Of a DNA stretch of 33,126 nt, positions 11,762 through 33,126 are shown piece after piece; the first letter of the stretch is position 1; every line of letters begins with the position of its first letter. The position numbers and the translations under genes were made by a program. The stretch comes from Desulfobacterales bacterium. GTDB lineage: Bacteria > Desulfobacterota > Desulfobacteria > Desulfobacterales > Desulfosalsimonadaceae. The stretch lies in the NCBI GenBank assembly GCA_018334555.1, contig JAGXLR010000012.1, positions 1-33,126 on the forward strand. The letters run 5' to 3'. The notes below the pieces were generated by a model. The model ran no database searches and was not told the origin of the DNA. It was given only the letters and a program-made list of their open reading frames with translations.

Positions 11762-11783
11762 ACCGTTAGGGTGCCTCCATTTT

Positions 11784-12269: not shown

Positions 12270-12323
12270 TCCGACAAGCCCTTCCACCTTTTCCCTCTTT
12301 TCCTTGAGGAAATGAATCCCCAA

Positions 12324-12339
12324 AGCACGGATTGTGCCA
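12324..12339 (-). promoter_or_regulatory. Sigma-54 (-24/-12) promoter of leftward pilin operon
   Basis: On the minus strand the sequence is TGGCACAATCCGTGCT. It matches the RpoN consensus TGGCAC-N5-TTGCW with correct GG-to-GC spacing and one mismatch in the -12 box (GTGC for TTGC). The expected RNA start is near 12313, giving an untranslated leader of about 44 bases before the ATG at 12269. Pilin genes are often RpoN-dependent, which fits. Confidence 0.65.
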
Positions 12340-12609
12340 AATCCATGGGGCTGATCCAGCAGGCGCGGCGGTATTAACAGATCAAATCGAAATCCGGAAG
12401 GTTATAGGTTTTTCTGCAGTATTTGGGGGACCACTAAGTGGGCTAGGGAAAGCAAAAAAAACGAAAGGATTTTCGGAAGACACCGAAGAAATTTTCGGTT
12501 ATAGTTATCGTCATTAGACGATAGCTCGTCGTTTCATTTGGTCATTAGACCTGAAGTGGCTTCTAAGTGACTTAAAAATATATATCAATATTCCAGAAGC
12601 TTAGCTCTC

Positions 12610-12681
12610 TGTCATTTTGAGGAGCAAAAGCGACGAGGGATCTTGTTTGTTAAAGATTTCTCGCTGCCGCTCGAAATGACA
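12610..12681. repeat. 72-bp palindromic (REP-like) element, copy 1
   Basis: It starts TGTCATTTTGAG and ends CTCGAAATGACA, with arms that pair imperfectly over about 28 bases around an AT-rich loop. The same 72-bp length and arms recur at 27005 and 30560, with half copies at 433 and 24261. All copies are between genes. Confidence 0.9.
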
Positions 12682-12702
12682 AAATTGGATGAATCGTCTC
12701 AG

Positions 12703-12733
12703 TGCCTTAATGCCTTAATGCCTTAGTGCCTTT
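12703..12733. repeat. Tandem 8-bp repeat, TGCCTTAA x4
   Basis: Three full copies of TGCCTTAA (the third ends in AG) and one partial copy run head to tail, 21 bases after palindromic element copy 1. It follows the same arrangement as the other tandem tracts in this window. Confidence 0.85.
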
Positions 12734-12821
12734 AAACATACAGTAAAAGTTAATTTTAGGTTCGGTGCCGGGCCTCGGCCCCCGCGGGGGTATTTCTAAG
12801 GAACTTGTGCCCATTTTTTAG

Positions 12822-13031
12822 ACCTAAACTGAGCGATTTTCAAGTTTGCTGCAGATACGAGGAAGCGGATGTTGAGCTATAGCGGGCTATGCGAAACATC
12901 CGCTGACAAAGTAGATGCGGCAAAATTGGAAATCCCGGAGGGTTTCGAATTTTTAAATGGGAAATTGATTTAAGCCCTTTAAAATAATATAGAAACAAAA
13001 AGTTTAAAAATTTGAAACGCTCAGTTTAGGT
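12822..13031. repeat. 210-bp MITE-like element with 14-bp terminal inverted repeats
   Basis: The ends are perfect 14-bp inverted repeats: ACCTAAACTGAGCG at 12822 and its complement ending at 13031. Similarity extends about 10 more bases inward. Inside lie nested inverted repeats: GCTGCAGATAC/GTAGATGCGGC, GCGGATGTT (12865) with AACATCCGC (12895), and ATAGC-GG-GCTAT at 12879. The element is therefore one long imperfect palindrome. No target-site duplication is clear and no transposase is encoded. Confidence 0.8.
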
Positions 13032-13263
13032 TGGAGTAAGAGTAAGACGGTCGCAAGTTACTTTCTGCAAAAATGCCGCTCCCCTTCATGATTGGGCTAT
13101 AAAAAATGTTAATCAGACTATTAAATTTTTTTATAGCTATGGGCTGAATAGACCCCCGAAGGAGCGGGCGAATCACGCCCAGCTGTTCCGGTGTAAAAAA
13201 TAAACCCTTTAATCCTGATAAGTTAACAGGCAACCCCATTTTTTCCACGGACGGACGAGGTTC

Positions 13264-13279
13264 TGGCATGAATTTTGTT
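13264..13279 (+). promoter_or_regulatory. Candidate sigma-54 promoter of rightward pilin operon
   Basis: TGGCATGAATTTTGTT follows TGGCACG-N4-TTGCW with the right spacing, but has T for C in both boxes. It lies 40 bases upstream of the ATG at 13320, so the expected RNA start would leave room for the GGAGG ribosome binding site. It is weaker than the site of the divergent operon. Confidence 0.4.
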
Positions 13280-13319
13280 TCAAGAAAATCAAAAGGTGAA
13301 AAAACCCGGAGGCGATCAG

Positions 13320-13769
13320 ATGAGAAAAAATAACGGCTTTACATTAATGGAACTGATGGTAGCCATCGCTATTATTGCCATCCTCACCACTATAGCCATA
13401 CCGAATATTATCAGTTACATAGGTAATCAACGGATAAACCGGGCGGCCTACGAAGTCAAGTCGGCGATTCAGTCGACACGTGTCAAGGCCATCAAGGAAA
13501 ATTCGGACGCCAGGATAGATTTTCCGAGTTCTACTGAATATCAGATTCGCATCTGGGACCGGAGCAGCGGCGGCTTTATTGATGATGGGGCGGTGAATAA
13601 GATGCCACTGGGGGTTACCCTGACGACGGGGTTTACTAGTGGTGATAGTTATCTGGAATTTGGCCCGCGGGGAACGTCCAATTCCGTGGAGACGGTGACA
13701 ATCAACGACGGCGATGGCCGTACCCGCCAGATTACGGTTCAGATCTCCGGAACTTCTAAGATTGGTTGA
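13320..13769 (+). CDS. fimT: FimT/GspH-like minor prepilin, first gene of rightward pilin operon
   Basis: The ATG at 13320 has GGAGG 8 bases upstream and gives a short leader MRKNNG, cut before FTLMELMVAIAIIAILTTIAIPNIISYI, with Glu at mature position 5. The 149-residue protein has the GspH/FimT layout: N-terminal helix, AAYEVKSAIQSTRVKAIKEN helix, then a beta sandwich. An upstream in-frame start at 13275 would give an atypically long leader and overlap the candidate promoter. It is a paralogue in kind of the leftward FimT-like gene, but the mature domains differ clearly. Confidence 0.9.
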   Translation: MRKNNGFTLMELMVAIAIIAILTTIAIPNIISYIGNQRINRAAYEVKSAIQSTRVKAIKENSDARIDFPSSTEYQIRIWDRSSGGFIDDGAVNKMPLGVTLTTGFTSGDSYLEFGPRGTSNSVETVTINDGDGRTRQITVQISGTSKIG

Positions 13770-13791
13770 TTTTTGAAAGGGTTTGTGTCCA

Positions 13792-14451
13792 ATGATTGCA
13801 GCAGACGACAAAAATAAAGGCTTTACCCTGATTGAGCTGTTGGTCGCTATGGCGGTGGCCGCCATTGTGATGGCGGCGATCGTTTCCGCCTATCAGGTAC
13901 AGGTTAAGGGCAAGTTGACCCAGGATATTACGATAGATATGCAGCAGACCGCAAGGGCGGCGCTCCAGATAATGGCCTCAGATATCCAGCTAGCCGGTTG
14001 TGATCCGGAGGGTAGTGCCAACGCAGGATTCGATACGGCGGATTCCGGAAACATCGAGGTTAGCATGGACATTGATGATGATTCGTCTACAGGGCTTCCG
14101 GACGGGGATACGGAGGCGCCCGGTGAACAGGTTGAGTATCGTTTAAGCGGCGATCAACTCCAAAGGGATATCGGGGATGGCAACGGGTTTAGAACCATTG
14201 CCCAAAACGTGGACGCCCTGGATTTCGTCTATCTGGATAGTGACGGCGCGACTACGAGCAACAGAAGCGACATCCGCCGTGTCGAGATGACCATCATCGT
14301 CCGTTCGGATCGGGATCCGTGGCTGAGTGATTATGTCAACAATAAAACCTATCAAAACAAGCAGGGAAATGATATCTACGGGCCGGCCAATGATGAGTCC
14401 CCGCGTCTCTGCCTGACCAAAACCGTTTTTTGCCCGAATATGGGGCTTTAA
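13792..14451 (+). CDS. pilW: PilW-like minor prepilin
   Basis: The leader MIAADDKNKG is cut before FTLIELLVAMAVAAIVMAAIVSAYQVQ. The segment TARAALQIMASDIQLAGCDPEG and a later GEQVEYRLSGDQLQRDIGDGNG segment are the usual PilW/GspJ marks. The ATG at 13792 is preferred to an in-frame TTG at 13783; AAAGGG lies upstream. The 219-residue chain has an acidic stretch (DIDDDSSTGLPDGDTE) and a C-terminal pair of cysteines that could form a disulphide. It is second in the rightward operon. Confidence 0.88.
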   Translation: MIAADDKNKGFTLIELLVAMAVAAIVMAAIVSAYQVQVKGKLTQDITIDMQQTARAALQIMASDIQLAGCDPEGSANAGFDTADSGNIEVSMDIDDDSSTGLPDGDTEAPGEQVEYRLSGDQLQRDIGDGNGFRTIAQNVDALDFVYLDSDGATTSNRSDIRRVEMTIIVRSDRDPWLSDYVNNKTYQNKQGNDIYGPANDESPRLCLTKTVFCPNMGL

Positions 14452-14471
14452 ACAGGGAGGTAGAATTCATT

Positions 14472-15071
14472 ATGCGTCAAGAGAAGAGAAAGACAAACGC
14501 TTCCAGCGGATACACGCTTATGGAGGTTCTCATTGCCCTGGCCATATTCTCAATCGGGCTTATGGCTATGGGATCCCTTCAGAGCCGTTCGCTTATGAGT
14601 ACCAACCGCTCCACCGATCTGACCGAGGCCTGGACAGTGCTGGAGGACTGGGTGGGCATGCTGAACACCATACCGTTTTATCCAAATGATAATAACATGA
14701 ATGACGATGGCGACGGCGCGACCGACGAGACGGATGAAATCCATCCCTGGCTCGAGGATACCGACACAAGTGCGGCGGGCTTCGATCACCAGGTTAGTGA
14801 TTTTGTCGGTGATACTATCGGTGATTCTGATTTTTCTGATCTTAAGCTGCCCCAGGACGGGCGCTACGAGGTCCATTGGCGGGTTGTCAATGACGAGCCG
14901 ATCAGCCAGAAGGACGAAACCGAGCTGCCGGGTGTGAGCGCAGGCAGCTACACGGTTTCCAAAACCATCACCGTTTCAGTTACGCGTCCAAACGGTGACC
15001 CACAGGCCGATGCCCTGGCGATGGCCGAATTTGTGAAGGTATGGGGCGCCGATGAGGGCGGAATTCCATAG
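14472..15071 (+). CDS. pilV: PilV-like minor prepilin with Asp-rich insert
   Basis: The leader MRQEKRKTNASSG is cut before YTLMEVLIALAIFSIGLMAMGSLQ, with Glu at mature position 5; the SIGLMAMGSLQ pattern is typical of PilV. The ATG at 14472 has GGGAGG 11 bases upstream; a start at 14430 would lie in the previous gene. Residues 72-89 form an Asp/Asn-rich insert containing NDDGDGATDETDE, resembling a calcium loop. The 199-residue protein ends with a beta-rich domain. It is third in the operon, overlapping nothing. Confidence 0.87.
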   Translation: MRQEKRKTNASSGYTLMEVLIALAIFSIGLMAMGSLQSRSLMSTNRSTDLTEAWTVLEDWVGMLNTIPFYPNDNNMNDDGDGATDETDEIHPWLEDTDTSAAGFDHQVSDFVGDTIGDSDFSDLKLPQDGRYEVHWRVVNDEPISQKDETELPGVSAGSYTVSKTITVSVTRPNGDPQADALAMAEFVKVWGADEGGIP

Positions 15072-15112
15072 GCTGTTAATTTTATTATTTTATATAGAAG
15101 AGGCATAAACAA

Positions 15113-15718
15113 ATGATGCGGAGCATACTCGAAAGACTGCAATGGGCGAGGGAGGACCAGAGCGGATCGGTTATCGTGGTCGCCCTGCTTTTGCTGGTGG
15201 TAATGACGCTCGTCGGCGTCACGGCAACGGATACCGTGGTCACTGAAGATCTGATCATCCGGAACGTCGGCCTTCATCAGCAAAATGTCAACCTCGTCAC
15301 AGCGGGGGCCATGGAGGGGTTCCAGGAGATTCTAACGGCCCCCGGTGCTGAACTGCAGCAGATTAATGAAGGCGGCGCCGGCGGCTCCGGCATTCTGTCC
15401 TGGTCAAACGCGATGTCCACCTGGGATGGGAGCGGAAATCTTGATGAGGACTTTTGTAACCCCAATACCGACCAACAACTGGATTCGTCGATCAACTGGA
15501 AGGTTCCGGAGAGCATCCAGGACGGGGATATCACCCTTATTAATACCCGTGGCGAGACAGCCTCAGATCCGCTCCGGATCGCCCTGATAGGCTGGGATGT
15601 GGTAGGCACCCTAAAGACCGGCGGGCAGAAAATTTACACGGGCGTCCTTCTTTCGGAATACCTTTCCGATAAACACGGCATGCAGCGCCTGGTGGTAAAA
15701 TTTAAGCATCTGTTTTAA
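15113..15718 (+). CDS. pilX: PilX-like pilus assembly protein
   Basis: A 201-residue protein with the PilX N-terminal pattern: EDQSGSVIVVALLLLVVMTLVGVTATD, a single membrane helix lacking the Glu5 motif, then a helical region with QQNVNLVTAGAMEGFQEIL. Length fits classical PilX. It starts at ATGATG 41 bases after the PilV-like gene, with AGAGG upstream, and directly precedes pilY1, the conserved order in type IV pilus minor-pilin operons. PilX and PilY1 normally act together in the priming and tip complex. Confidence 0.87.
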   Translation: MMRSILERLQWAREDQSGSVIVVALLLLVVMTLVGVTATDTVVTEDLIIRNVGLHQQNVNLVTAGAMEGFQEILTAPGAELQQINEGGAGGSGILSWSNAMSTWDGSGNLDEDFCNPNTDQQLDSSINWKVPESIQDGDITLINTRGETASDPLRIALIGWDVVGTLKTGGQKIYTGVLLSEYLSDKHGMQRLVVKFKHLF

Positions 15719-15748
15719 ATCCCGACAAAATGAAAGGGAGATGATAAT

Positions 15749-18700
15749 ATGATACCGAGACATAAAAAACGAATTTGTCAATTGACGGCGGTGCTTGCGG
15801 CGGTGATGTTTTTGTTCGGGGCGGCGCCGGCAATGGGGGGGGATTGTCTGGACCTTGCCGATGTGCCCCTTAGAAGCCTGCGGACCCTGACCCCGCCGGG
15901 CCTGATCATGTTTATTTTTGACAACTCGGGCAGCATGGACTGGGAAACCATGACCCAGACGCTGGGAAAGGACGCCACCCTTTGTGATGATTCGGATGCG
16001 GGTTTTTACCTTAACCTGGACCAAAAGTATTATGGATACCAGTACATATTTGATACAACGGGCCTGGGCGGCTCGGACAATATTCTGGAAACCGACGGCT
16101 CGGCGCGGGACAAGTTCCTCTGGCTGGCCAGATGGCACGGCTACAACAAGGTCTATTACAATCCGACCGTTGACTACCAGCCCTGGCCGAAGTGGGTGGA
16201 ACTCGCCAATGCGGACCAGAGCGAGTTAAACCACCCCAACAAAGAGCAGCCCGACACGCCGGACGCGACCACCAACGGGGAAAACGCGCACCCGGACCAG
16301 CCGCGCATCCATCCCATGTATAACAAGTATACCTATGATCTCACGCAGGATTTTGCCAGCATAACACTCGTTGACAAGTGCGCGACGGAGACCGAGACCA
16401 TATTCGTGGATGATGTGAACTCGAACAATGAAACGGGCGATACGTTTTCCGCCACCCACGAGACAGCGGGCGATAGCACCTGGGGAACGTCCTCGTCCGG
16501 CGACGCCTACCCGGCGATGGGTGACCCGAACACCTCGTCTTCCACCTACCATTACTCCTATGTGGATCGGTATGAGAAAAACGTCGACTTCACGGCGACC
16601 TGGGAGACCACCAACCTGGACCCCACCAAGGAATACCATGTGTATGCCACATGGCGGGGTGAGCTTTACAACCGAACGACGGATGTTGAGTATGTCGTGT
16701 ACGACGGCTCCGTCAGCAACCAGACGGACGTGGCTTCAAGAAGCGTGAACCAGAGATACACCAGCGGGCAATGGGTGCAGTTGACGAGCTCCTCCGGCCC
16801 GATAACGTTTTCCGGGTCCACGGGGATCGTTCAGTTCGAGCATACGCAGAACTATAATATCAATGAGACTTACTATGATGAAAGAGTCTGCGCGGATGCG
16901 GTGAAGTTCGTCGAGGTGCCGCCGGATGCGGGTACGGCTACGATCCAGCAGCGGCATTATTATATTGTAGAAAACGGAACGCCGTATCTGATCAACCTGA
17001 ACGGATCGGATTTTGAGTATTACAAGGTTTGTGACAATAACGACAATAAGATTGTTGAAGACGGGGATTTGGTTCAGTTAACCGAAGAAGAGGCATCAAC
17101 TGCCGGTATCATTCCGGATTGTACCTACGCGGATGCGGAGCAGAACTTCGCCAACTGGTTCTCCTTTTACCGCAAACGCGACTATACGGCCCGCTACGCC
17201 GTATCCCAGGTCATCACCCAGATGTCCAATGTCCTGTTCGGCTTCTCCACCATTCCGGAGCGCGAGGACCTGGGGGTGCGGTGGATAGATACGCATTTTG
17301 ACGGCAAGGATTTTGATAACACAAATGAGCTCTTAAACCGGGTGTATATGCTCTCGGACCCGAACTCGGGCACCCCGCTAAGGAAGGGCATGAACAAGGT
17401 GGGCAAGTATTTCCAGGAGCTGGGCGGCACCTTTGCCAATACCGCGGATGTGAACGCCCTGGGCATTTATTCGGACAAGGGCACAACCTACCCCTATTTT
17501 ACGGCCGAATACGGCGGTGAGTGCCAGCAGGCGTTTACCATCATGATGACCGACGGCGCCTATAACGGCCAGGGGCCCAATATCCCCAACGCCGACGGGG
17601 ATAACAACACCGCGTTTGACGGGGGAAAGTATGCCGACACCCAGCAAGACACCCTGGCGGACGGGGCGATGGAGTTTTATGAGACGGATTTAAAGACCAA
17701 CCTGGAAGACCTGGTGCCCACCAATCCGGCGGATGACAACAAGCAGCAGCATATGGTCACCTATACGCTCTCCTACGGGGTCCATGGCACCGAAGATCCG
17801 GCTGACTACCCGGATTGCATCGGTTTGGAGTGCGAAGGCTCCGGCTGCTGCCCGGAACCCTGGCCCACGGTTACCAAGGGGTCGCTGACCACGTTGGATG
17901 ACCTGTATCACGCGGCGGTTAACGGCCGGGGCTTGTATTTGAACGCCTCTAATCCGCCGGAGCTGGTCGAGGCGCTCCTAAGGATCAAGGCGGATATCGA
18001 AAGCCGCCTGGGATCGGCCGCTGCCGTGGCGACCAATTCCGTGCAGCGCCGGGCCGGATCCAAGGTGTACCAGGCGAAATACCTCGAAGGCTGGATGGGT
18101 AATCTAATCGCCTTTAACGTTAAGGTCGGCACAGGCACAATCGGCGAAAAGGTATGGGAGGCCAAGGAAGTCCTGAAATCCACGGATTGGGACAGCGGGC
18201 GGACTATCTTCACATTCGGCACGACCAACGGCGGCAGCGCCTTCAGGTATACCAGCCTGTCCGACGTCCAGAAGGCCAAGCTGCAGAACGGCCTGGACTA
18301 TGCGTTCGGCACCGGTCAGGCGCCGACGGTTGAAGAACTGGTTCCGTATCTTCGCGGAAACCATGCCCAGGAGAAGAAGAATGGCGGGATAGCCCGAAAC
18401 CGGGACGGGAAGCTGGGCGACCTCGTCCATTCCACACCGTTTTACCATGACGGGGTGGTCTATGTGGGGGCCAATGACGGGATGCTTCACGCGTTTGACT
18501 CCGAGAGCGGCGAGGAGCATTTTGCGTATGTGCCCGGCAGGGTATACGATCATCTGGCGGAGCTGGCGGATCCCGAGTATGAACATCGGTTTTTCGTGGA
18601 CGGACCGCCCTATGTCGCGGATGTGTCTTCAACCCAAACCCTGCTTGCCGGCGGATTCGGCAAGGGCGCCAAGGGCGTGTACTGCCTGGATGTCAGTGGT

Positions 18701-20050
18701 GCCAAGGGCGCGGACGAGGCAAACGCCTCTGATTTTACCATGTGGGAATATGACGGGACCTCGGAATCATCGCCTTCGGATTTGGGCTATGTGTACGGCA
18801 AGGCCTATATCATCCAGACCACGGATGGCTGGAAGGTGGTTTTCGGCAACGGGTATAACAGCGAGAGCGAGGAGGCGGTCCTGTACCTGGTTGATGCCAA
18901 GGGCGGCCCCACTGCTGGTGTGACAAAGATTGAAACCGGCGTTACCGGCTGCAACGGCATGTCCTCGCCGGCTGTGGTGGACTATCAAACGGACGGAATC
19001 ATCGACGCGATTTATGCCGGGGATTTAAAGGGCAATCTCTGGAAATTCGATATATCCGGGGATAAAGCCGAGTGGGGAAGCGCCTATACCGACGGCACGA
19101 ATCCAAAGCCCCTGTTTACCGCGCAGAGTGCGTCCGGCGGCACCCAGCCGATCACCTCTGAGCCGGATGTCATGTACCACTGTCAATCGGAGAAGTCCGG
19201 CTATATCGTCGTCTTCGGCACCGGCAGCTATTTGAACGAGGATGATCTGAGCGATACGAGCCAGCAGACCATGTACGGCGTCTGGGACTGGAAGAAGGAG
19301 CTGGAAGCCCGGGGGGATATCTCAAACCCCGAGCAGCAATACCTGGGTGCATTCTCGACCGGGTCGCCGCGCGTGTTGACCAATATAGACGGGGCATCCT
19401 ATCTGAACGGGAACCCCCCGACGCTGCAGGAGCAGACAATAGACTATGAAGATGCGGATAAGTTGATCCTGTCCGACAACGAGGTCTATTATTTTGGCAC
19501 TGCGGAGCCCAGTACCGGGGAGACCCAATTGGGCTGGTACTTTGATCTGCCGCATTCCGGAGAACGGGTGGTGGAGGACCCCATGATCCGTTGGGACACG
19601 GCTGTCTTTGTTGGTATGTGGCCGGAATGCGATTACTGTGATTTAGGCGGCGGCAGCTCCGTTTTGTATCAGGTGGATGCATGCAACGGGGGACAAACAG
19701 AGGAAGCCCGGTTTGATGCCGACGGGGATGATGTCGTTGATCAATATGACATGGTCCATCCGGACAACCCGGACGTGACGTTTAACCCGGATGAGGATTA
19801 CGACGGGGACGGGGATACCGGCGATGAAGACGATATAATCGCGTTTTTAGAAATGTATGGGGATGGTACCACTGATTATGACGCGGATGATCTGGCGACG
19901 GTATCCGGTCAAGCATATGGCGATATCGTCCGTCCCACGCAGCTTCCGCCTGATCGGCTGGCAATCAATCCATCCACCGGGGCTCCGCCGAATACAACAC
20001 CGGTTGTCAAAATCGGCTCGGGATTCATATACTGGCGGATGATTGAGTAG
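15749..20050 (+). CDS. pilY1: PilY1-type pilus tip protein with inserted golvesin-like domain
   Basis: A 1433-residue secreted protein, long for PilY1. Signal peptide is about residues 1-31 (to AMG). A von Willebrand A-like domain starts at IMFIFDNSGSMDW (MIDAS Asp58, Ser60, Ser62) and resumes near 464 with IMMTDGAYNGQG (598-609). Between these halves, about residues 218-390, lies a domain resembling golvesin/xanthan-lyase C-terminal modules: Trp-containing strands, YNRTTDVEYVVY, VNQRYTSGQWVQL, CADAVKFVEV. The PilY1 propeller spans about 885-1300 (LGDLVHSTPFYHDGVVYVGA; a calcium-type blade with D1078, D1082 and D1086). Near 1322-1382 are two dockerin-like Asp-rich loops. The protein likely promotes pilus assembly and binds surfaces; the ligand is unknown. 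Confidence 0.93.
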   Translation: MIPRHKKRICQLTAVLAAVMFLFGAAPAMGGDCLDLADVPLRSLRTLTPPGLIMFIFDNSGSMDWETMTQTLGKDATLCDDSDAGFYLNLDQKYYGYQYIFDTTGLGGSDNILETDGSARDKFLWLARWHGYNKVYYNPTVDYQPWPKWVELANADQSELNHPNKEQPDTPDATTNGENAHPDQPRIHPMYNKYTYDLTQDFASITLVDKCATETETIFVDDVNSNNETGDTFSATHETAGDSTWGTSSSGDAYPAMGDPNTSSSTYHYSYVDRYEKNVDFTATWETTNLDPTKEYHVYATWRGELYNRTTDVEYVVYDGSVSNQTDVASRSVNQRYTSGQWVQLTSSSGPITFSGSTGIVQFEHTQNYNINETYYDERVCADAVKFVEVPPDAGTATIQQRHYYIVENGTPYLINLNGSDFEYYKVCDNNDNKIVEDGDLVQLTEEEASTAGIIPDCTYADAEQNFANWFSFYRKRDYTARYAVSQVITQMSNVLFGFSTIPEREDLGVRWIDTHFDGKDFDNTNELLNRVYMLSDPNSGTPLRKGMNKVGKYFQELGGTFANTADVNALGIYSDKGTTYPYFTAEYGGECQQAFTIMMTDGAYNGQGPNIPNADGDNNTAFDGGKYADTQQDTLADGAMEFYETDLKTNLEDLVPTNPADDNKQQHMVTYTLSYGVHGTEDPADYPDCIGLECEGSGCCPEPWPTVTKGSLTTLDDLYHAAVNGRGLYLNASNPPELVEALLRIKADIESRLGSAAAVATNSVQRRAGSKVYQAKYLEGWMGNLIAFNVKVGTGTIGEKVWEAKEVLKSTDWDSGRTIFTFGTTNGGSAFRYTSLSDVQKAKLQNGLDYAFGTGQAPTVEELVPYLRGNHAQEKKNGGIARNRDGKLGDLVHSTPFYHDGVVYVGANDGMLHAFDSESGEEHFAYVPGRVYDHLAELADPEYEHRFFVDGPPYVADVSSTQTLLAGGFGKGAKGVYCLDVSGAKGADEANASDFTMWEYDGTSESSPSDLGYVYGKAYIIQTTDGWKVVFGNGYNSESEEAVLYLVDAKGGPTAGVTKIETGVTGCNGMSSPAVVDYQTDGIIDAIYAGDLKGNLWKFDISGDKAEWGSAYTDGTNPKPLFTAQSASGGTQPITSEPDVMYHCQSEKSGYIVVFGTGSYLNEDDLSDTSQQTMYGVWDWKKELEARGDISNPEQQYLGAFSTGSPRVLTNIDGASYLNGNPPTLQEQTIDYEDADKLILSDNEVYYFGTAEPSTGETQLGWYFDLPHSGERVVEDPMIRWDTAVFVGMWPECDYCDLGGGSSVLYQVDACNGGQTEEARFDADGDDVVDQYDMVHPDNPDVTFNPDEDYDGDGDTGDEDDIIAFLEMYGDGTTDYDADDLATVSGQAYGDIVRPTQLPPDRLAINPSTGAPPNTTPVVKIGSGFIYWRMIE

Positions 20051-21215: not shown

Positions 21216-23039
21216 ATGACTACCGAAAAACAACATCCCTTCGCCGACAAAGCCGTCTGCAAAACCCTGGTCAGGCACGGCCTTTTAACCAAGGAGCAGG
21301 CCCGGGATGTCCTGGAGAAAAAGGCGCGCATACAGGGCAATCTCGAAAAGGAAAAGGCGGATCAAGCCCAAGATGGCGCTGCAAGTACCAGTGTCAGAAA
21401 CCCCGTTACCATAGTGGATGTCATTGCCTCCTTCAAGTTCAAGCGGGCGGACAACCCCTCGCTGGAACTCGACGAGGACGCGATTTTTAATGTCCTGGCC
21501 GATGAATGGGGCTATCCCTACAAAAAGATCGATCCGGTAAAACTGGATCTGAACCTCGTGACCACCACCATCCCCCGCAATTTTGCCATGAAGCACCTTG
21601 TGCTGCCCATTGGCGTGGAAAGCGGAAGGCTTGTGGTGGCCACCGCCAATCCGTTTAACGCAGAGGTGATCGAGGACCTCGGCCGGGTCAGCCAGATGCC
21701 GGTAACCCAGGTGGTGACCGCCAAGTCCGATGTGATCCGCCTGATTAACGAATTTTTCGGGTTCAAACGATCCATCGCTGCGGCGGAAGTTCAATTCGGC
21801 GCCCCGTCCATCGACCTGGGAAACCTTGAGCAGTATGTCCGGCTGAAGGCGACGGACGAGCTGCCGGCCAATGATCACCATATCGTCAATGCGGTTAACC
21901 ACCTTTTAAGCTATGCCTTTGACCAGCGGGCCAGCGATATCCATATCGAGCCCAAGCGCGATACGGACCTGGTCCGTATGCGGATTGACGGGGTGCTGCA
22001 TACGGTCTACAAGCTGCCCAAAAAGGTGCATTCTGCCATTATCAGCCGCATCAAAACCCTGTCCCGCTTGGATATCGCCGAAAAGCGGCGCCCCCAGGAT
22101 GGGCGGATAAAAACCGCCAAGGGCGATGCGGAGGTGGAAATCCGGATTTCGACCATTCCCGTGGCATTCGGCGAAAAGGTGGTCATGCGGATCATGGATC
22201 CGGATATCCTGTTCCAGGAAGTGGAGGAGCTGGGGTTTACATCACAGGATTTTGAGCACTACCAGCGGATGTTTTCCATGCCCTACGGGCTTATTCTGGT
22301 TTGCGGCCCCACCGGCAGCGGCAAATCAACCACCCTGTATTCCACCCTGAGGCGGATCTCCACGCCGGATATCAATATTACCACCGTTGAAGACCCCATC
22401 GAGATGATCCACGAGGAATTCAACCAGATTGCGGTCCAGCCGGCGGCGAATGTGACGTTTGCCACGATCCTGCGAAATATTCTGCGGCAGGACCCGGATG
22501 TGGTGATGGTAGGGGAGTTAAGGGACCTGGAAACCGTTCAGAATGCCATACAGACCGCCCTGACCGGGCACCTGGTGCTCTCCACCCTTCATACCAACGA
22601 TGCCCCGTCCGCCATTATCCGGCTCATGGATATCGGATTGCCGCATTTTCTGATCCAGGCCACGTTGACCGGGGTGATTTCCCAGCGCCTGGTCAGAAAG
22701 ATCTGTCCCAAGTGTATGGAGTCTTTCGAAATGGACTGCGAACAGCTTCGCCAGATGGGCCTGGATCTGGGAAGGGACGGCCGTGTTAAGCTTTATCGGG
22801 GCAAGGGGTGTATTAACTGCCGGTATACGGGCTACTACGGTCGAACCTCTGTCTTTGAGGTCATGCCCTATACAAGAACGCTTCGGGAAAAAACCACGGC
22901 GACCGCGGATCTTTCCGTTGTGCAGGATCAGGCCCTGAGAGAGGGAATGGTGACATTGAGGGAAAACGCCGTCAAAAAACTTTTGGACGGCGTTACCACC
23001 TATCAGGAAGTCATGCGGGTTACATGGGAACAGGCCTAG
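21216..23039 (+). CDS. GspE/PilB-family secretion or pilus assembly ATPase
   Basis: A 607-residue hexameric-type ATPase powering type II secretion or type IV pilus extension. The N-terminal region (about 65-190) is a GspE N-domain. The core has SDIHIEPKRD near 240, Walker A GPTGSGKST (364-372), the Asp box with TTVEDPIE near 390, Walker B with DPDVVMVGELRD (426-437), the His box TGHLVLSTLHTNDA, and a tetracysteine zinc site (C497/C500 and C532/C535). All catalytic residues are present, so it should be active. It is a separate transcription unit from the pilin operon. PilB versus GspE cannot be decided here, because no PilC, PilT or PilM-Q gene is nearby. Confidence 0.93.
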   Translation: MTTEKQHPFADKAVCKTLVRHGLLTKEQARDVLEKKARIQGNLEKEKADQAQDGAASTSVRNPVTIVDVIASFKFKRADNPSLELDEDAIFNVLADEWGYPYKKIDPVKLDLNLVTTTIPRNFAMKHLVLPIGVESGRLVVATANPFNAEVIEDLGRVSQMPVTQVVTAKSDVIRLINEFFGFKRSIAAAEVQFGAPSIDLGNLEQYVRLKATDELPANDHHIVNAVNHLLSYAFDQRASDIHIEPKRDTDLVRMRIDGVLHTVYKLPKKVHSAIISRIKTLSRLDIAEKRRPQDGRIKTAKGDAEVEIRISTIPVAFGEKVVMRIMDPDILFQEVEELGFTSQDFEHYQRMFSMPYGLILVCGPTGSGKSTTLYSTLRRISTPDINITTVEDPIEMIHEEFNQIAVQPAANVTFATILRNILRQDPDVVMVGELRDLETVQNAIQTALTGHLVLSTLHTNDAPSAIIRLMDIGLPHFLIQATLTGVISQRLVRKICPKCMESFEMDCEQLRQMGLDLGRDGRVKLYRGKGCINCRYTGYYGRTSVFEVMPYTRTLREKTTATADLSVVQDQALREGMVTLRENAVKKLLDGVTTYQEVMRVTWEQA

Positions 23040-24326: not shown

Positions 24327-25586
24327 ATGAATTTTATCGCCGTCATCATTTTAGTCGCTTTGGCCTTAAACCTGATTCTGCATATCACCGCCGACATATG
24401 CAACCTAAAGAATCTGAGTACGCAGCTGCCCGAGTCATTCAAGGGTTGGTATGACCCGGATCGGTACCGTGACGCCCAGGCGTACCTTCTGGCCAATACC
24501 CGGTTCGAGTGGGTGTCATCCGGCGTCTCGCTGGCGGTATTCCTTTTGCTGTGGTTTGGCCATGGGTTCCCCATGCTCGACCAGTGGGTGCGTTGCCTCG
24601 CGCAGTCGCCGATCATCCGGGGGCTTGTCTATATCGGCGTGCTGGTCGGTGTAAAGGCGGTGATCGGCCTGCCGTTTTCCGTCTATTCGACGTTTGTAAT
24701 CGAAGAGCGCTTCGGATTCAACCGGACCGATGCAAAGACATTTGTCTCGGATTTGATCAAGCGAACCGTGCTGGGCGTCTTGATCGGAGGCGCCCTGCTC
24801 GCCGGCGTCCTGGCCTTTTTTGAATACGCGGGCGACAATGCCTGGTGGTATTGCTGGATCGCGGTGGCGGCTTTCATGGTGGCTATGCAGTTCGTCGTAC
24901 CCACGTGGATCATGCCGCTTTTCAACAGGTTCACCCCGCTCGAGCCGGGGGAGTTGAAAACCGCCATCCTCTCCTATGCCGAATCCATCGGGTTCCCGCT
25001 GAAAAACGTATTCGTCATGGACGGCTCGAAACGCTCGGGCAAGGCGAACGCTTTTTTCGCCGGATTCGGCCGGAATAAACGGATCGTTTTATTCGACACC
25101 CTGATCGAAAACCACGATGTCTCCGAGCTGGTGGGGATCCTCGCCCATGAAATGGGGCATTACAAAAAAAAGCACATTTACTGGATGATGCTTGCCGGCA
25201 TTATTCAAAGCGGGGCGCTCCTTTTTCTCCTGTCCCTGTTTATCTCAGCCCGGCCGCTTTTCGAGGCGTTTTATATGGATCAGGCATCCGTTTACGCGGG
25301 CCTTGTGTTTTTCGGGATTCTCTACAGCCCGATCGATTTTTTTATCGGCATTTTCGTGCAGATGTTCTCCAGGCAGAATGAGTACGCGGCCGATCGGTTC
25401 GCCGCGGAGACAACAAGGCGGCCGAATGAATTTATCCGGGCGTTGAAAAAACTTGCGGTGCACAACCTGGCCAATCTGCGGCCGCACCCCCTGTATGTGT
25501 TCTTAAACTATTCGCACCCGCCCATACTGGACCGGATCGAGGCGATCTCTAAAATAGGGGCGGAATCAAGGCCTTGGAATGGTTAA
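24327..25586 (+). CDS. M48-family membrane metalloprotease (Ste24/CAAX protease-like)
   Basis: A multi-pass membrane zinc protease. The zinc site HEMGH is at residues 274-278, followed by KKKH, and a later NEYAADRFAAE supplies the third ligand. KRSGKANAFFAGFGRNKRIVLFDTL just before HEXXH is typical of the Ste24 group, which removes C-terminal tripeptides from prenylated proteins in eukaryotes; bacterial members probably do membrane protein quality control. The ATG at 24327 gives 419 residues; an in-frame TTG at 24312 lies in the tandem repeat. Neither has a clear ribosome binding site. Its last 38 bases overlap the convergent DUF362 gene. Confidence 0.9.
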   Translation: MNFIAVIILVALALNLILHITADICNLKNLSTQLPESFKGWYDPDRYRDAQAYLLANTRFEWVSSGVSLAVFLLLWFGHGFPMLDQWVRCLAQSPIIRGLVYIGVLVGVKAVIGLPFSVYSTFVIEERFGFNRTDAKTFVSDLIKRTVLGVLIGGALLAGVLAFFEYAGDNAWWYCWIAVAAFMVAMQFVVPTWIMPLFNRFTPLEPGELKTAILSYAESIGFPLKNVFVMDGSKRSGKANAFFAGFGRNKRIVLFDTLIENHDVSELVGILAHEMGHYKKKHIYWMMLAGIIQSGALLFLLSLFISARPLFEAFYMDQASVYAGLVFFGILYSPIDFFIGIFVQMFSRQNEYAADRFAAETTRRPNEFIRALKKLAVHNLANLRPHPLYVFLNYSHPPILDRIEAISKIGAESRPWNG

Positions 25587-26847
25587 GGCGGGCTCTGGCA
25601 AGCAGGGCCAGGGATTTTACCGGGTTCATATCGGCCAGCGTCATGGGATTCACCTTCATGTGCCGGCAGAGCGCGTAAACGGTTGCCGGCAGGTTGTTGC
25701 AGCCCTGGCTGAAGGTGACATTTTTTTTGCCGAACCGGCGGACCATCTCCCGGCCGTAATCCTGTATCGCACAGCTGCCAGCCAAATGCACCGGCGGTTT
25801 TTCTATTCGGTCCACCGCCGCCGGATCGATGTCCTTGCCCATGAGGATCGTAAAATCCCCACCTCCGTTGTGGTCGTTGTATAGGATCTCAACCACGGTT
25901 TCGGTGTTGCGCCGGCATCCCTCCATGCAGCAGCGCGTTTTTCCCCTCAGGATACGAAGATCCGGCGGAAATTTTTCCAGTAAATGATGGGTCAAAACCC
26001 GTTTGCGGGCCTCAAACAGGTGCCGGTTGATGATCTCGACCGTATCCGGCTGGGATGCGGTGCTGATGCCGGTTTTTGCGGCAAGCGCCAGATGCGGTAC
26101 ATCTTCGATTTTGTAGCCCAGAAAGGCTGCGGCGATAATGTCCACGGCGAGCGGGTCGTCCCCGCCGATCAGGCAGTTCATGGGAATAATGCATTCGTCT
26201 TCGAATTTTTCGGCAATATAGTGGCCGTGGTGGGTGGCGATCAGGCCGTCTGTGACGACGAAGTCCGGCCGCAGCACCCGGTAAATATCGGCGAATTTCT
26301 GGTGAAGCCGGAAGTTGTGGTCCGCCACCCGGCTGTGCTGGTGGACCAGTCCGAACTGGTTTTTTATGGAAAGCGTGACCTGGGACATGGAATGGGTTTT
26401 TAGCTTGGGAAGCGACACGTAGAGGTTGGCGTCTTTTTGCTCAACCAGCCGGCAATAGACGAAGTCCGAAATGTCGACAAAGGACTGGAGCCCTTCGAGA
26501 TAGACCGGGACCGCCCCGGTTTCATCCAGGTATACCGGGATGGCCCCGGTTTCTTTGCATGCCCGGGCCAGGCCAGCGGCCTCAAAGACCAGCCGGGTGA
26601 TGTTGCCCTGGGTGCAGTTCTCGATGACGTATATGTTGTTGGCGCCGGCTTTCTGAAAATGGCGGATGACCGCCTTCAGGACCTCCGGGTGGGTGAAGGC
26701 ATGCTTTTTTAGATCCACGGCGTTGGGCTTTAAGAAGACGTCGCCGCTGGATTTCAGTAGCGAACCGGCACCTCCCGCATGGTCGAATATCTCTGCCACG
26801 GCCCTGTCAATGCCTTGGTTGGTGTCGGAAAAAATGACCCTGTGCAT
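25549..26847 (-). CDS. DUF362-domain protein
   Basis: A 432-residue cytoplasmic protein of the DUF362 family, common in anaerobes and of unknown biochemistry. Visible features are DVFLKPNAVDLKKHAFTHPEVLKAVI near the N terminus, LYVSLPKLKTHSMSQVTLSIKNQFGLV in the middle (the most conserved part), and GGDDPLAVDIIAAAFLGY. A cysteine group, CCMEGCRRNTE, near residue 310 and later CNNLP could hold metal, but no classical ferredoxin motif is present. GGAGG precedes the ATG. It lies downstream of the FGGY kinase on the same strand, across a 349-base repeat tract, so a link with that cluster is uncertain. Confidence 0.85.
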   Translation of the reverse strand: MHRVIFSDTNQGIDRAVAEIFDHAGGAGSLLKSSGDVFLKPNAVDLKKHAFTHPEVLKAVIRHFQKAGANNIYVIENCTQGNITRLVFEAAGLARACKETGAIPVYLDETGAVPVYLEGLQSFVDISDFVYCRLVEQKDANLYVSLPKLKTHSMSQVTLSIKNQFGLVHQHSRVADHNFRLHQKFADIYRVLRPDFVVTDGLIATHHGHYIAEKFEDECIIPMNCLIGGDDPLAVDIIAAAFLGYKIEDVPHLALAAKTGISTASQPDTVEIINRHLFEARKRVLTHHLLEKFPPDLRILRGKTRCCMEGCRRNTETVVEILYNDHNGGGDFTILMGKDIDPAAVDRIEKPPVHLAGSCAIQDYGREMVRRFGKKNVTFSQGCNNLPATVYALCRHMKVNPMTLADMNPVKSLALLARARLNHSKALIPPLF

Positions 26848-26968: not shown

Positions 26969-27004
26969 TTTCATTCCGTAGGTTTAAGCGCCATTTGGCC
27001 GCAT

Positions 27005-27076
27005 TGTCATTTCGAGCGAAAGCGAGAAATCTTTTACAAACAAGATTCCTCGTCGCTTGCGCGCCTCGGAATGACA
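27005..27076. repeat. 72-bp palindromic (REP-like) element, copy 2
   Basis: TGTCATTTCGAGCGAAAGCG at the left end pairs with the CTCGGAATGACA right end. Length and arms match copies 1 and 3. Confidence 0.9.
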
Positions 27077-27133
27077 AGGCAAAAAGCTTGCGCGCCTCGG
27101 AATGACAAGGCAAAAAGCTTGCGCGCCTCGGAA
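27057..27133. repeat. 31-bp tandem derived from the palindrome's right arm
   Basis: The unit beginning TTGCGCGCCTCGGAATGACA occurs at 27057 and 27088, exactly 31 bases apart, with a truncated third copy at 27119. The first copy overlaps the end of palindromic element copy 2, so the tandem grew from it. Confidence 0.9.
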
Positions 27134-30390: not shown

Positions 30391-30525
30391 AGTCTCGTAA
30401 AAAGTCCAAGCCCCGGCTAAGATCCGGGGGCTCGCAAAATCCCGTGGAATGCAGCGTACTTAGCTGTACGTGAAATTCCGAGGGACGGAAGCGCAACACA
30501 GATATTGGACTTCTAAGTAACTCGA
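30391..30525. repeat. 135-bp inverted-repeat (MITE-like) element
   Basis: AAGTCCAA (30402) pairs with TTGGACTT (ending 30512), with weaker pairing out to GTCTCG/CTCGAC at the ends. The centre is a nested stem: GGAAT (30446), 4 bases, CGTAC, a 6-base loop, GTACG, 4 bases, ATTCC (ending 30479). This is the same layout as the centre of the 12822-13031 element. Confidence 0.7.
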
Positions 30526-30559
30526 CAATATTTAATATTATTTTAGATGCTTTCGCTGT

Positions 30560-30631
30560 TGTCATTCCGAGGAGCGAAAGCGACGAGGAATCTTGATTGT
30601 TCAAGATTTCTCGCTGCCGCTCGAAATGACA
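30560..30631. repeat. 72-bp palindromic (REP-like) element, copy 3
   Basis: TGTCATTCCGAGGAGCGAAA at the left pairs with CGCTCGAAATGACA at the right; its left arm is nearly identical to copy 1's. Confidence 0.92.
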
Positions 30632-30758
30632 ATGCGGATGTTTTTTAGAGTTACTTTCTGTAAAAATACCGCACCAGCGGAATAAACCGCTTTTTACGAA
30701 GCCATCAAAATTTAAGCCTGACACAGAAATTGAGCAAAAGGGGACATTTTCAATAAGG

Positions 30759-32354
30759 CTATGAGAGTTTGCCCGGATTCATCCGCATATCCGGATCCGT
30801 ATACGACCAGATCCGATTTAGCAGGTCCACGCCCATCCGGCCTTTTTCCGCGGCCAGGTAAGGCTTATGGTCCGTTCCCACCCCGTGCTGATGGGAGATG
30901 GTGCCCCCGGCATCAACAATGGCCTGGCTGGCTTTGGTTTTAAGCAGCTGCCAGCGGCTCATGGTCTCCTCGGCGGTTTCCGCCAGCCGGTATACAAACG
31001 TCGTGTAAACGCTTGAGCCCGTCTTATAAACATGGGAGAGATGCGAGAAGACGTGGACGCTTTCGTTTTTCTCCGATAGGGCGCTGCTGACAGCGGACTC
31101 CACCGCTGCCATGGTCGGCCGCACGTTATCCCAGTTAACGGCGGTTTCAAGGGTGTCCACGCCGTAGCCATAGTCCCACAGGGTGTTCCTTAAATAGGGG
31201 GCCAGGAATCGGTTCTTCTTCCAGGCGTTGCCCATGGATTTGCCGACGGGGACGCCGTTAAACTTTTTGATGACGTCCCGCGCATTGCGCCAGCCGATAT
31301 GCACCGCTTTCCGGCTGCCGATGAGGCCGATAAGCGCCATGCAATAGGTGCTGTCACATAGCCCCCTGAGCCTCAAGTATCGTTTTAAAAGGGCGATCTG
31401 CTTTTCATGACCGGCCAGGATGAGGTTGGTCATGGTCTCCGTGGGATTGCTCAAACGGACCATGGAAAGCGGCAGCTCGGCGGCAGTCAAGGCGCGTACG
31501 GCATCGACCGCCTTATCCCAGGAGGGGAAAAAGACGCCGTATATATCATCCGATGCCGGTATTTCCGATATTCTGACCCGGGCATCGGCAAGGACGCCCA
31601 TCCGGCCCTCGGAGCCCATGACGATTTGACGGATATCAGGCCCGGCCGCCGAGGCGGGATAGGGCGGCAGCATCATATCGTCTTTGGCGGTGATGAGCCG
31701 GCCGCCGGCGAAGAGCCCCTCGATGCGGCCGTAGTACATGGACTGCTGACCGCTGGATCGTGTGGTCACCCAGCCGCCGAGGGTTGATTGTTCATATGAC
31801 TGGGGATAGTGGCCCAGCGTATAGCCGTAGGTCCTGAGCTGGGCCTCCAGGTGCGGCCCGCGGACGCCGGCTTCGAATGTGGCCAGCCGGTTGTAAGAAT
31901 TGATGTCCACCAGGCGGTTCAACCGTTCGAGGGATAATGACACGACGGGGCGGTCGCCATCCGGTACATTCAGGTGTCCGACGACGCTGGTGCCGCCGCC
32001 GTACGGGATGACGACGGCGTTTTCCTTTTCGGCAAATGCCAGTATATCGGCTATTTCATCCGTTGTCGTGGGGTAGGCCACGGCATCCGGAAACCGGTCT
32101 AATGAGCCGTAGCGAAACCCGATCCAATCCGGAAAACTCTGGCCATAGGCATGAAGGAGCCGCTCTTCGGAATCGGTCGAGACGAGCGATATGGGCTGCC
32201 GGATACGGCTTTGCGGGACACGGGAAAGGAGCTGTTTTTTCGAACAGGCCGGGCCGGGGGCGGCGCTGCCCACGAGTTCATTAAGCATTGTAGCCGCCCC
32301 TTCGGGCAGCGGCATCTCAACCTGATCATCCCCCCATCCGTTCCAACGATACAT
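30759..32354 (-). CDS. FAD-linked oxidase/synthase resembling alkylglycerone-phosphate synthase
   Basis: A 531-residue VAO-type flavoprotein. ATG 32354 has a perfect AAGGAGG 6 bases upstream. The opening YRWNGWGDD resembles the conserved KWNGWGYND of alkylglycerone-phosphate synthase. The FAD loop PYGGGTSV is at 117-124; PQSYEQSTLGGWVTTRSSG near 184 and GPDIRQIVMGSEGRMGV at 238-254 match that family. The C-terminal TISHQHGVGTDHK (near 487) corresponds to its His-rich catalytic loop. That enzyme swaps an acyl for an alkyl chain on dihydroxyacetone phosphate; related bacterial proteins (for example E. coli YgcU) have unproven reactions. The gene start overlaps fadR by 29 bases, implying co-expression. 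Confidence 0.85.
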   Translation of the reverse strand: MYRWNGWGDDQVEMPLPEGAATMLNELVGSAAPGPACSKKQLLSRVPQSRIRQPISLVSTDSEERLLHAYGQSFPDWIGFRYGSLDRFPDAVAYPTTTDEIADILAFAEKENAVVIPYGGGTSVVGHLNVPDGDRPVVSLSLERLNRLVDINSYNRLATFEAGVRGPHLEAQLRTYGYTLGHYPQSYEQSTLGGWVTTRSSGQQSMYYGRIEGLFAGGRLITAKDDMMLPPYPASAAGPDIRQIVMGSEGRMGVLADARVRISEIPASDDIYGVFFPSWDKAVDAVRALTAAELPLSMVRLSNPTETMTNLILAGHEKQIALLKRYLRLRGLCDSTYCMALIGLIGSRKAVHIGWRNARDVIKKFNGVPVGKSMGNAWKKNRFLAPYLRNTLWDYGYGVDTLETAVNWDNVRPTMAAVESAVSSALSEKNESVHVFSHLSHVYKTGSSVYTTFVYRLAETAEETMSRWQLLKTKASQAIVDAGGTISHQHGVGTDHKPYLAAEKGRMGVDLLNRIWSYTDPDMRMNPGKLS

Positions 32355-33057
32355 CGTCAACCTCCTTTTCGGTTGTTTTCATTTGCTTCCATAGATCGAT
32401 ACTTTTTACCATGGCTTTCCGGACGGTCGTCTCCACCCGGGTCCTGTCATTGTCAATCGCCTGTCGCAGCCCCTTATAGAAGGCGAGCGAGGCCTCCCTG
32501 GCGGCTTCACGGCTGAAATAGAGGGCCGCCATGGTCTTAAAAATCGTTTCGAAATCGTTTAAAATCATCAGATGAACCGGGTTCCCGGAATGCCGGGCCA
32601 AGAGCTGCTGCAGCTGCCAGTCGTATTCGGTAAATGCCGCCGGATCGTTTTTAAGGCCCGTACACCGCTCCAGGTAGGCGGCAATGGGCTCGGGTGCCTT
32701 TTCAATCGCCTGTTTGGCAATCGGCGGGTTGATTATGACCCGGAGCTCGAGCAAATGCTCAATAAAGGACGCCGGTAGATAGCTGCCGTATTTGACCAGG
32801 GTGCCCAGCAGCCGCAACCCCCCTTTTTCCCAGAAATAGTTGACCTCGGTGGGTTTTCCATGCCTTATCGTGACCCATCCTTCGCTGGCCAGGCGCTGCA
32901 GCGTCTCCCGGATCGTCGGGCGCGTCACTCCCAGATTCTCCGCGAGTTTTCGCTCCGCAGGCAGCGCGGATCCCGGCGGGTATCGCCCGTCGAGGATTCG
33001 CTCGATGAGCTGTTGTTCGGTAAATCGTCCCGGTCGAAGGGGGGTGTCGGTATGCAT
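32326..33057 (-). CDS. fadR: FadR-type acyl-CoA-responsive regulator (GntR family)
   Basis: A 243-residue DNA-binding protein that closely resembles E. coli FadR along its length. The winged helix shows YPPGSALPAERKLAENLGVT, then RPTIRETLQRLASEGWVTIR, then HGKPTEVNYFWE. The residues matching E. coli's DNA contacts R35, T44, R45, T47, R49 and H65 are all present, shifted by one. In the ligand domain Ser219 and Trp223, whose E. coli mutants fail to respond to acyl-CoA, are kept; Tyr215 and Gly216 are replaced by Ala and Met. In E. coli long-chain acyl-CoA releases FadR from DNA. It heads the cluster with its own operator upstream, suggesting autoregulation and control of the downstream flavoprotein. 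Confidence 0.92.
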   Translation of the reverse strand: MHTDTPLRPGRFTEQQLIERILDGRYPPGSALPAERKLAENLGVTRPTIRETLQRLASEGWVTIRHGKPTEVNYFWEKGGLRLLGTLVKYGSYLPASFIEHLLELRVIINPPIAKQAIEKAPEPIAAYLERCTGLKNDPAAFTEYDWQLQQLLARHSGNPVHLMILNDFETIFKTMAALYFSREAAREASLAFYKGLRQAIDNDRTRVETTVRKAMVKSIDLWKQMKTTEKEVDDVSLERMGG

Positions 33058-33082
33058 CGTGACCTCTTTTTATTATATTGGT

Positions 33083-33099
33083 AAGAGGTCATACCAGTT
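33083..33099 (-). promoter_or_regulatory. FadR-type operator upstream of fadR
   Basis: On the minus strand the 17-mer is AACTGGTATGACCTCTT. It resembles the known E. coli FadR site (AGCTGGTCCGACCTGTT type), agreeing at 13 of 17 positions including the CTGGT and GAC cores. It overlaps the -10 region of the predicted fadR promoter. A second half-site, TGACCTCTT, lies at 33060-33068 in inverted orientation. Confidence 0.65.
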
Positions 33100-33116
33100 T
33101 ATTTTGATTTTGTCAA
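33088..33116 (-). promoter_or_regulatory. Sigma-70 promoter of fadR
   Basis: On the minus strand TTGACA (33111-33116), a 17-base spacer and TATGAC (33088-33093) form a good housekeeping promoter. The RNA start would be near 33081, leaving about 24 bases before the ATG with AGAGG as ribosome binding site. The -10 box is covered by the FadR-type operator. Confidence 0.6.
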
Positions 33117-33126
33117 TCAAAAAAAA

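Follow-up and report, generated by a model that had tools for sequence, protein, structure and literature searches.

A FadR homologue of Desulfobacterota joined to a conserved AGPS-like, GlpD-like and FGGY kinase gene set, and its possible role in acyl-CoA-controlled ether-lipid cleavage

The window analysed here, a stretch of 33,126 nucleotides from a Desulfobacterales genome (contig JAGXLR010000012.1), carries near its right end, on the minus strand, an operon in the order fadR, AGPS-like flavoprotein gene, glpD-like gene and FGGY kinase gene, and the same parts recur beside FadR genes across the phylum. The FadR membership of the regulator, the make-up and conservation of the operon and the architecture of its operator and promoter are evident from the sequences, and the predicted regulation of the operon by FadR is well supported. 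The whole proposal, in which acyl-CoA would relieve FadR repression of the operon and the encoded enzymes would cleave alkylglycerols independently of oxygen, is given a probability of roughly 0.5. The window represents one contig (C24) of a 3.2-Mb genome that is 95% complete and contains dsrA, and the organism is therefore probably a sulfate or sulfite reducer. The features of the operon are collected in Table 1.

Table 1. Positions of genes and regulatory elements of the fadR operon within the window
Feature	Position	Strand	Remarks
fadR, 243 aa	32326..33057	-	GntR-type winged helix and FadR_C acyl-CoA domain
AGPS-like flavoprotein gene (type a), 531 aa	30759..32354	-	ATG at 32354 behind AAGGAGG
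GlpD-like FAD glycerol-3-phosphate dehydrogenase gene, 517 aa	28784..30337	-	domain/profile search, G3P-site residues
FGGY-family kinase gene, 518 aa	27197..28753	-	domain/profile search; not glycerol kinase
Ribosome-binding site AAGGAGG of the AGPS-like gene, within fadR	32361..32367	-	
Repeat element(s) between the AGPS-like and glpD-like genes	30429..30699	-	copies elsewhere in the genome
DUF362 protein gene after the kinase gene	25549..26847	-	operon membership uncertain
Predicted FadR operator AACTGGTATGACCTCTTACCA, core TGGTATGACCTCTTACCA at 33079-33096	33079..33099	-	conservation
-10 box TATGAC, within the operator	33088..33093	-	
-35 box TTGACA	33111..33116	-	17 bp before the -10 box

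The regulator, which a preliminary description of this DNA had taken for a FadR homologue, displays a GntR winged helix ahead of the FadR_C domain (Pfam domain search, 4.4e-22 and 1.9e-33, respectively), scores 208.2 bits against the NCBIfam FadR equivalog NF003444, above its cut-off of 189, and falls below the cut-off of the gamma-specific TIGR02812 (198 against 249.2), with FadR as its nearest solved protein. In a tree of 95 proteins, the window protein was placed inside a FadR clade (SH-aLRT 99) that joins 64 sequences from the phylum with five FadRs of Gammaproteobacteria, including that of E. coli, FadR beyond this phylum being sampled by these five sequences alone; 18 FadR_C paralogues from the phylum, PdhR, LldR and NanR were placed outside, and the tree, built by a quick method, contains long branches and is not to be relied on for the branching order inside the clade. 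A scan of genome contigs with FadR gave matches from Rheinheimera only. The DNA contacts R35, T44, R45, R49, H65, G66 and K67 are present in the window protein, as are the pocket residues S219 and W223, so that the homology and most of the DNA contacts claimed earlier were upheld, the exception being T46 of E. coli FadR, which is Pro in the window protein and in 58 of the 64 relatives. The residues R35, R45, R49, G66, R105, D145 and Y193 are invariant across the clade, W223 is kept in 62 and S219 in 50 of its 64 members, and the roles of these DNA-contact and acyl-CoA pocket residues are presumably those known from established FadR structures. The paralogues, on the other hand, display R49H, H65P, G66R, Y193H, S219G and W223L. 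On sequence criteria, the window protein is thus regarded as a true FadR. A FadR_C paralogue of this latter type on another contig of the same genome (C89) was rejected as the FadR of the organism, as it belongs to another clade, has altered DNA and ligand residues and lacks the operon.

Within the window, the stop codon of fadR at 32326 and the AGPS-like ATG at 32354 give an overlap of exactly 29 bases, as had been reported; the pairing of these two genes also stood, and the glpD-like and FGGY kinase genes further along had been missed. The AGPS-like and glpD-like genes are separated by 420 bases in the window, where the gap holds copies of a repeat, and by about 160 bases in a sister species, and the repeat element(s) are regarded as inserted and foreign to the system. 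A DUF362 gene at the position after the kinase gene was observed in the window's own family only. Upstream, the contig runs into another (C189) through an exact assembly overlap of 127 bases, and C189 encodes a phasin-like protein, two PhaR-like regulators, two ArsA-type ATPases and a wax-ester/TAG synthase. The same gene set was found in two sister species of the window's genus.

The conservation of the gene set was assessed by searching for FadR_C in two partly overlapping genome sets, 297 from the phylum and 292 from the order, and by searching the neighbourhoods of the FadR_C genes with the proteins of the window. One order supplied most of the 64 resulting FadR-clade loci and a different family of the phylum supplied two, and many of the genomes are fragmented. 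Within about 6.8 kb of the 64 genes, GlpD-like genes were observed in 52 loci, FGGY genes in 50 and AGPS-like genes in 48, many of the missing neighbours being contig ends; all three enzyme genes are near 42 of the 64 and at least one is near 58, against none of the 18 paralogues. Several operator-bearing fadR genes have no AGPS gene within about 6 kb. The AGPS slot is occupied either by type a (18 loci, about 57% identity to the window protein) or by type b (30 loci, about 31%), and at least five gene arrangements were observed, such as the co-directional orders fadR-AGPSa-glpD-fggy, fadR-glpD-fggy-AGPSb and fadR-glpD-AGPSb-fggy, and the divergent orders in which fadR-glpD faces fggy-AGPSb or AGPSb alone. 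The coupling of fadR with AGPS-like genes recurs in about 20 family-level groups, and since the reshuffled orders keep the same parts across these groups, there is strong evidence that fadR and the GlpD-like, FGGY and AGPS-like genes would represent one functional unit. No further gene family was found beside the operon in more than seven loci, and in the surveyed loci neither a fatty-alcohol or fatty-aldehyde dehydrogenase, a transporter or a lipase recurs beside the operon, nor a DHAP acyltransferase or an alkyl-DHAP reductase within it.

A site at 33083-33099 had been proposed as a target of FadR, and it proved real and not due to chance, as it lies within a 21–22 bp element that is found at 58 of the 64 FadR-clade genes and is absent elsewhere. 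The operator consensus AACTGGTAWGACCWCTTACCA overlaps the -10 box in these 58 loci; the core TGGTATGACCTCTTACCA is located upstream of fadR exactly in 39 of the 64 and with at most two mismatches in 58, and the conserved element extends to AACTGGTAWGACCWCTTACCAG, a pseudo-palindrome with the arms ACTGGTA and TACCAGT, whose flanks are unconserved. A TTGACA-like -35 box (five or six of six) stands 16–18 bp ahead of TATGAC in 50 of the 58 loci, against 2% of random positions, and a predicted operator lying over the -10 box has the geometry of a repressor site. Coding conservation was considered, as ATG ACC TCT TAC CA (MTSY) is in the fadR frame in some genomes, and was rejected: the reading frame of the operator relative to fadR is random (20/18/20 in 58 loci), and the constraint therefore acts on DNA. 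No other operator with at most two mismatches was found in the 783 kb of the same loci, the 18 FadR_C paralogues are without it, and across 395 genomes the exact 18-mer is located solely at FadR-clade fadR genes. Each of 12 fadR-bearing genomes has a single operator site, apart from matches with three mismatches, and a global FadR regulon was rejected, as further operators with at most two mismatches are absent from them; likewise, no second operator of this quality, and hence no fad target, was seen in the genome of the window. Because the operator occurs once per genome, at the fadR promoter, FadR in this phylum is best read as a local autoregulator, presumably an autorepressor. A second exact copy on the upstream contig (C189:80-97) is the same site, seen through the 127-base overlap. 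Single-mismatch matches in three genomes (G109, G412 and G284) are at about the level expected by chance. Three operator matches in a row were observed at one locus (G488), and G054, which is only distantly related but has the complete operon, carries another palindrome, ATCAGGTAATACCTGAT, upstream of fadR, which does not exceed chance.

The flavoprotein consists of FAD_binding_4 and FAD-oxidase_C domains, and its best solved relatives are the alkyl-DHAP synthases of Dictyostelium (1.3e-78) and guinea pig (1.5e-60), the next enzyme following at 1.8e-20 (phmmer), which agrees with the AGPS-like character claimed for it at the outset; type a and type b proteins are both closest to eukaryotic AGPS among solved proteins. 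Residues R352, R447 and Y508, to which a study of Dictyostelium ADPS attributes importance in catalysis (PMC3509576), are kept in the window protein when the three-residue offset of the PDB chain is taken into account. The protein is called AGPS-like and not AGPS because its His-His-His motif reads His-Gln-His, as in most type a proteins, the motif being HHH in type b. The GlpD-like protein scores 289 bits against NF008899, below the cut-off of 360, and no match above that cut-off was found in 12 genomes; the residues R54, Y55, H233, R317, R332 and K354, which we take to be those of the glycerol-3-phosphate site of GlpD, are kept in all 50 operon copies. The kinase scores 150 bits against the GlpK model TIGR01311, far from its cut-off of 590, and resembles several FGGY subfamilies, the xylulokinase model scoring highest yet below its own cut-off, and no close solved relative of it was found. 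R83 of GlpK and the catalytic D245 are retained, and the GlpK signature is lost in all 48 copies, with E84 replaced by A, G, N or S, Y135 mostly by L, F, I, A or V, and F270 deleted. In GlpK, E84 and Y135 bond the glycerol hydroxyls and F270 touches the carbon chain of glycerol (PMC3245297). A separate canonical GlpK is encoded in 11 of 12 genomes, that of the window included (G000:C112), and the kinase was accordingly rejected as the glycerol kinase of the organism; since the glycerol-specific residues are lost and a canonical GlpK lies elsewhere, its substrate is probably a glycerol bearing a greasy substituent.

From these data we infer a scheme of repression, acyl-CoA response, substrates and pathway direction in which FadR would repress transcription by binding the predicted operator over the -10 box of the fadR promoter, and rising long-chain acyl-CoA would release FadR and permit expression of the operon. 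The FGGY kinase would then convert an alkylglycerol (glyceryl ether) to 1-alkyl-glycerol-3-phosphate, the GlpD-like enzyme would oxidise carbon 2 to yield 1-alkyl-DHAP, and the AGPS-like enzyme, working in reverse, would put a fatty acid in place of the alkyl chain, giving acyl-DHAP and a fatty alcohol that could enter beta-oxidation. The kinase, the carbon-2 dehydrogenase and AGPS would align without a gap as a route of alkylglycerol cleavage, induction by acyl-CoA suits lipid breakdown, and dsrA was detected in 13 of 14 genomes checked, so that an oxygen-dependent cleavage enzyme would be unexpected in them; in P. aeruginosa, moreover, the triple of enzymes is activated together with a phospholipase C (PMC8151288). 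No report that AGPS catalyses net cleavage was found in the open-licence literature. The ether-lipid or acyl-DHAP step assumed in the preliminary description is accordingly plausible, with the correction that the coupling is to a three-enzyme set and not to AGPS alone.

The same regulation could serve the opposite direction, that is, an acyl-CoA-induced synthesis of ether lipids, in which the kinase and the GlpD-like enzyme would supply DHAP, an unlinked acyltransferase would form acyl-DHAP, and the AGPS-like enzyme would convert it with a fatty alcohol to alkyl-DHAP. This reaction is proven for eukaryotic AGPS (PMC3509576), the direction has been proposed for PA3026-PA3024 of P. aeruginosa (PMC8151288), and alkyl ethers are made by sulfate reducers (PMC11150832); moreover, a PF01553 acyltransferase gene directly follows the AGPS-like gene in one relative (G331), and this gene, like the wax-ester/TAG synthase and phasin-like genes upstream in the window's genus, is compatible with synthesis or storage. 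However, the acyltransferase and the reductase that a synthetic order would need are not recurrent in the operon and the special kinase would be superfluous to it, the alkyl ethers of one such bacterium have been ascribed to a glycerol ester reductase (Ger) (PMC11150832), and a kinase lacking the glycerol-specific residues, with a canonical GlpK encoded elsewhere, would be a poor source of DHAP. Synthesis, the main alternative, is considered rather unlikely; the genes suit ether-lipid cleavage no less well than synthesis, and cleavage appears the somewhat more likely direction.

As for the signal, long-chain or fatty acyl-CoA is the likeliest ligand of FadR in the phylum, as judged from its sequences, because the pocket residues are kept and because FadR and its operator face beta-oxidation-type genes in one family (f152). 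In two of its genomes (G503 and G461), a FadR clade member and the exact operator are divergent from genes for a fadE-like acyl-CoA dehydrogenase, a FadB/J-like protein and a thiolase, the operator standing 51 bp ahead of the fadE-like start codon, and the ether operon is absent from these neighbourhoods; a third locus (G535) is interrupted by a contig end. The suggestion that the regulator controls an ether-lipid step instead of beta-oxidation is therefore supported in so far as the coupling to AGPS-like genes recurs, and is incomplete in view of this family, with its fadE-fadB-fadA-like genes. A ligand other than acyl-CoA, such as an alkyl- or acyl-glycerol phosphate produced by the operon, is unlikely: Y215, G216 and F149 of the E. 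coli FadR pocket differ throughout the clade of the phylum and S219 is Ala in 13 of the 64 members, but W223, Y193, R105 and D145 are almost invariant, and the family just described has the same regulator and operator facing beta-oxidation genes. Under the same regulation, the enzymes might instead act on another glycerol-like substrate, such as a sugar or a lyso- or monoacyl-glycerol, and the AGPS-like protein might serve as a dehydrogenase or exchange esters; this is still more improbable, for although the kinase is near to several FGGY subfamilies with only a sub-cut-off xylulokinase match and no close solved relative, and the flavoprotein has His-Gln-His, the latter retains R352, R447 and Y508 and clearly prefers AGPS over other FAD oxidases, and one AGPS type replaces another in the same operon.

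Ether lipids are abundant in anoxic sediments, the habitat of such bacteria, and if the operon cleaves glyceryl ethers without oxygen, it would fill a gap, as the sole described cleaving enzyme is a monooxygenase. A near-invariant operator ties nearly all of the 64 FadR genes to one glycero-ether operon, which yields a clear prediction, and the same enzyme triple is present, uncharacterised, in P. aeruginosa. FadR, a textbook example of a regulator, has been regarded as restricted to Gammaproteobacteria, and a regulon study of 196 genomes states that it is absent outside them (PMC5343134); 64 clade members in another phylum widen its history. The view that sulfate reducers possess an acyl-CoA-controlled, oxygen-independent ether-lipid cleavage under a FadR lineage broader than the gammaproteobacterial one, with beta-oxidation as one use of FadR among others, is nevertheless offered tentatively. 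In the open-licence literature, no paper joining FadR with AGPS was found, nor one on bacterial alkylglycerol catabolism by such an operon, and on FadR in Deltaproteobacteria only the statement of absence was found. FadR, AGPS, the enzyme triple under an AraC-type regulator (GliR) and an actinobacterial set of AGPS, GlpD and lipid kinase under TetR are already known; FadR as a dedicated regulator of the operon across the phylum, together with its operator, appears undescribed as far as open papers show, in line with what had been supposed of this wiring.

Compared with the FadR of E. coli and other Gammaproteobacteria, the regulator shares the clade, the two domains, the DNA contacts (apart from Pro in place of Thr46) and the main pocket residues. 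The operator contains TGGTNNGACC, as does the gamma FadR box, but it represents a longer pseudo-palindrome (TGGTA, 8 bp, TACCA) with a spacing unlike that of the E. coli box, and FadR here appears to act locally, with a single site in each genome, where the gamma FadR is global; the window FadR would differ from the fad/fab regulator in role and not in descent. An actinobacterial cluster on a Tsukamurella plasmid (GlpD - TetR / AGPS-like - diacylglycerol kinase) likewise places a local regulator among AGPS-like and GlpD-like genes; that regulator is, however, a TetR, and a diacylglycerol-kinase-type protein replaces FGGY; Rv2249c-Rv2252 of M. tuberculosis is presumably of the same cluster type. 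PA3026-PA3024 of P. aeruginosa, compared by annotation and not by sequence, encode an FAD-binding oxidoreductase, a glycerol-3-phosphate dehydrogenase and an FGGY kinase in the same order, and are turned on by GliR (PA3027), which also activates a lipid kinase and a phospholipase C and which, in contrast to FadR here, is an AraC-type activator with other motifs and no acyl-CoA link; their deletion gave no phenotype on glycerol, and the pathway was drawn by its authors in the synthetic direction without proof (PMC8151288). Eukaryotic AGPS/ADPS shares the domain make-up and the catalytic R352, R447 and Y508 with the AGPS-like protein, which is distant from it (phmmer 1e-78 to 1e-60), lacks the peroxisomal part and has Gln for the middle His of HHH. 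Alkylglycerol monooxygenase (AGMO), described in two papers as the sole known glyceryl-ether-cleaving enzyme (PMC3617469, PMC7911779), would serve the same purpose, breaking glyceryl ether bonds, but is a tetrahydrobiopterin-dependent monooxygenase of unrelated chemistry.

The right end of the window (contig C24) overlaps exactly by 127 bases with contig C189 of the same genome, which is therefore its upstream continuation, the shared stretch being the assembly k-mer. Past fadR, C189 carries phasin-like, PhaR-like, ArsA-type ATPase and wax-ester/TAG synthase genes. Within the operon itself lies a repeat element, of which copies with 83–96% identity were found elsewhere in the window and on further contigs of the genome. 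Also in the window, what appears to be a cluster of type IV pilus minor pilins was read by eye; it includes several N-termini of prepilin type and a PilY1-like protein of 1433 aa, and a PilB-type ATPase adjoins it.

Positions of the features described in this section
Feature	Position	Remark
Repeat element	window 30429-30699	between AGPS-like and glpD-like genes
Repeat copies	window 12560-12682; 26999-27077	
Minor pilin cluster	window 9474-20050	apparent; read by eye
PilB-type ATPase	window 21216-23039	read by eye
Contig overlap	window 33000-33126; L103 1-127	C24/C189
MIF-family gene	L198 7632-7976	G022:C13
FadR_C paralogue	L081 1-2759	G000:C89
Second AGPS-like gene	L082 7350-8969	G000:C200

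At L192 (G488), the 18-bp operator stands three times, exact and in tandem, upstream of a single fadR gene. At L198, the FadR-clade gene has neither operator nor operon and is followed by a MIF-family protein gene (PF01187). A third, weak FadR_C group (40–60 bits; L211-L215, in G004, G019, G016, G013 and G022, respectively) precedes AGPS type b and FGGY kinase genes without a GlpD-like gene; the operator is absent at these five loci, and the group represents a further regulator on the same theme. In the window's genome, the gene immediately downstream of the FadR_C paralogue encodes a glycyl-radical enzyme (655 aa, running off the contig end), and fatty-acid genes are not what follows it.

The same genome harbors a second AGPS-like gene (30% identical), whose neighbors encode methylmalonyl-CoA mutase subunits, MeaB, a 2-methylcitrate-dehydratase-like protein, a glycyl-radical activase and a partial glycyl-radical enzyme, a mixture reminiscent of anaerobic hydrocarbon activation.
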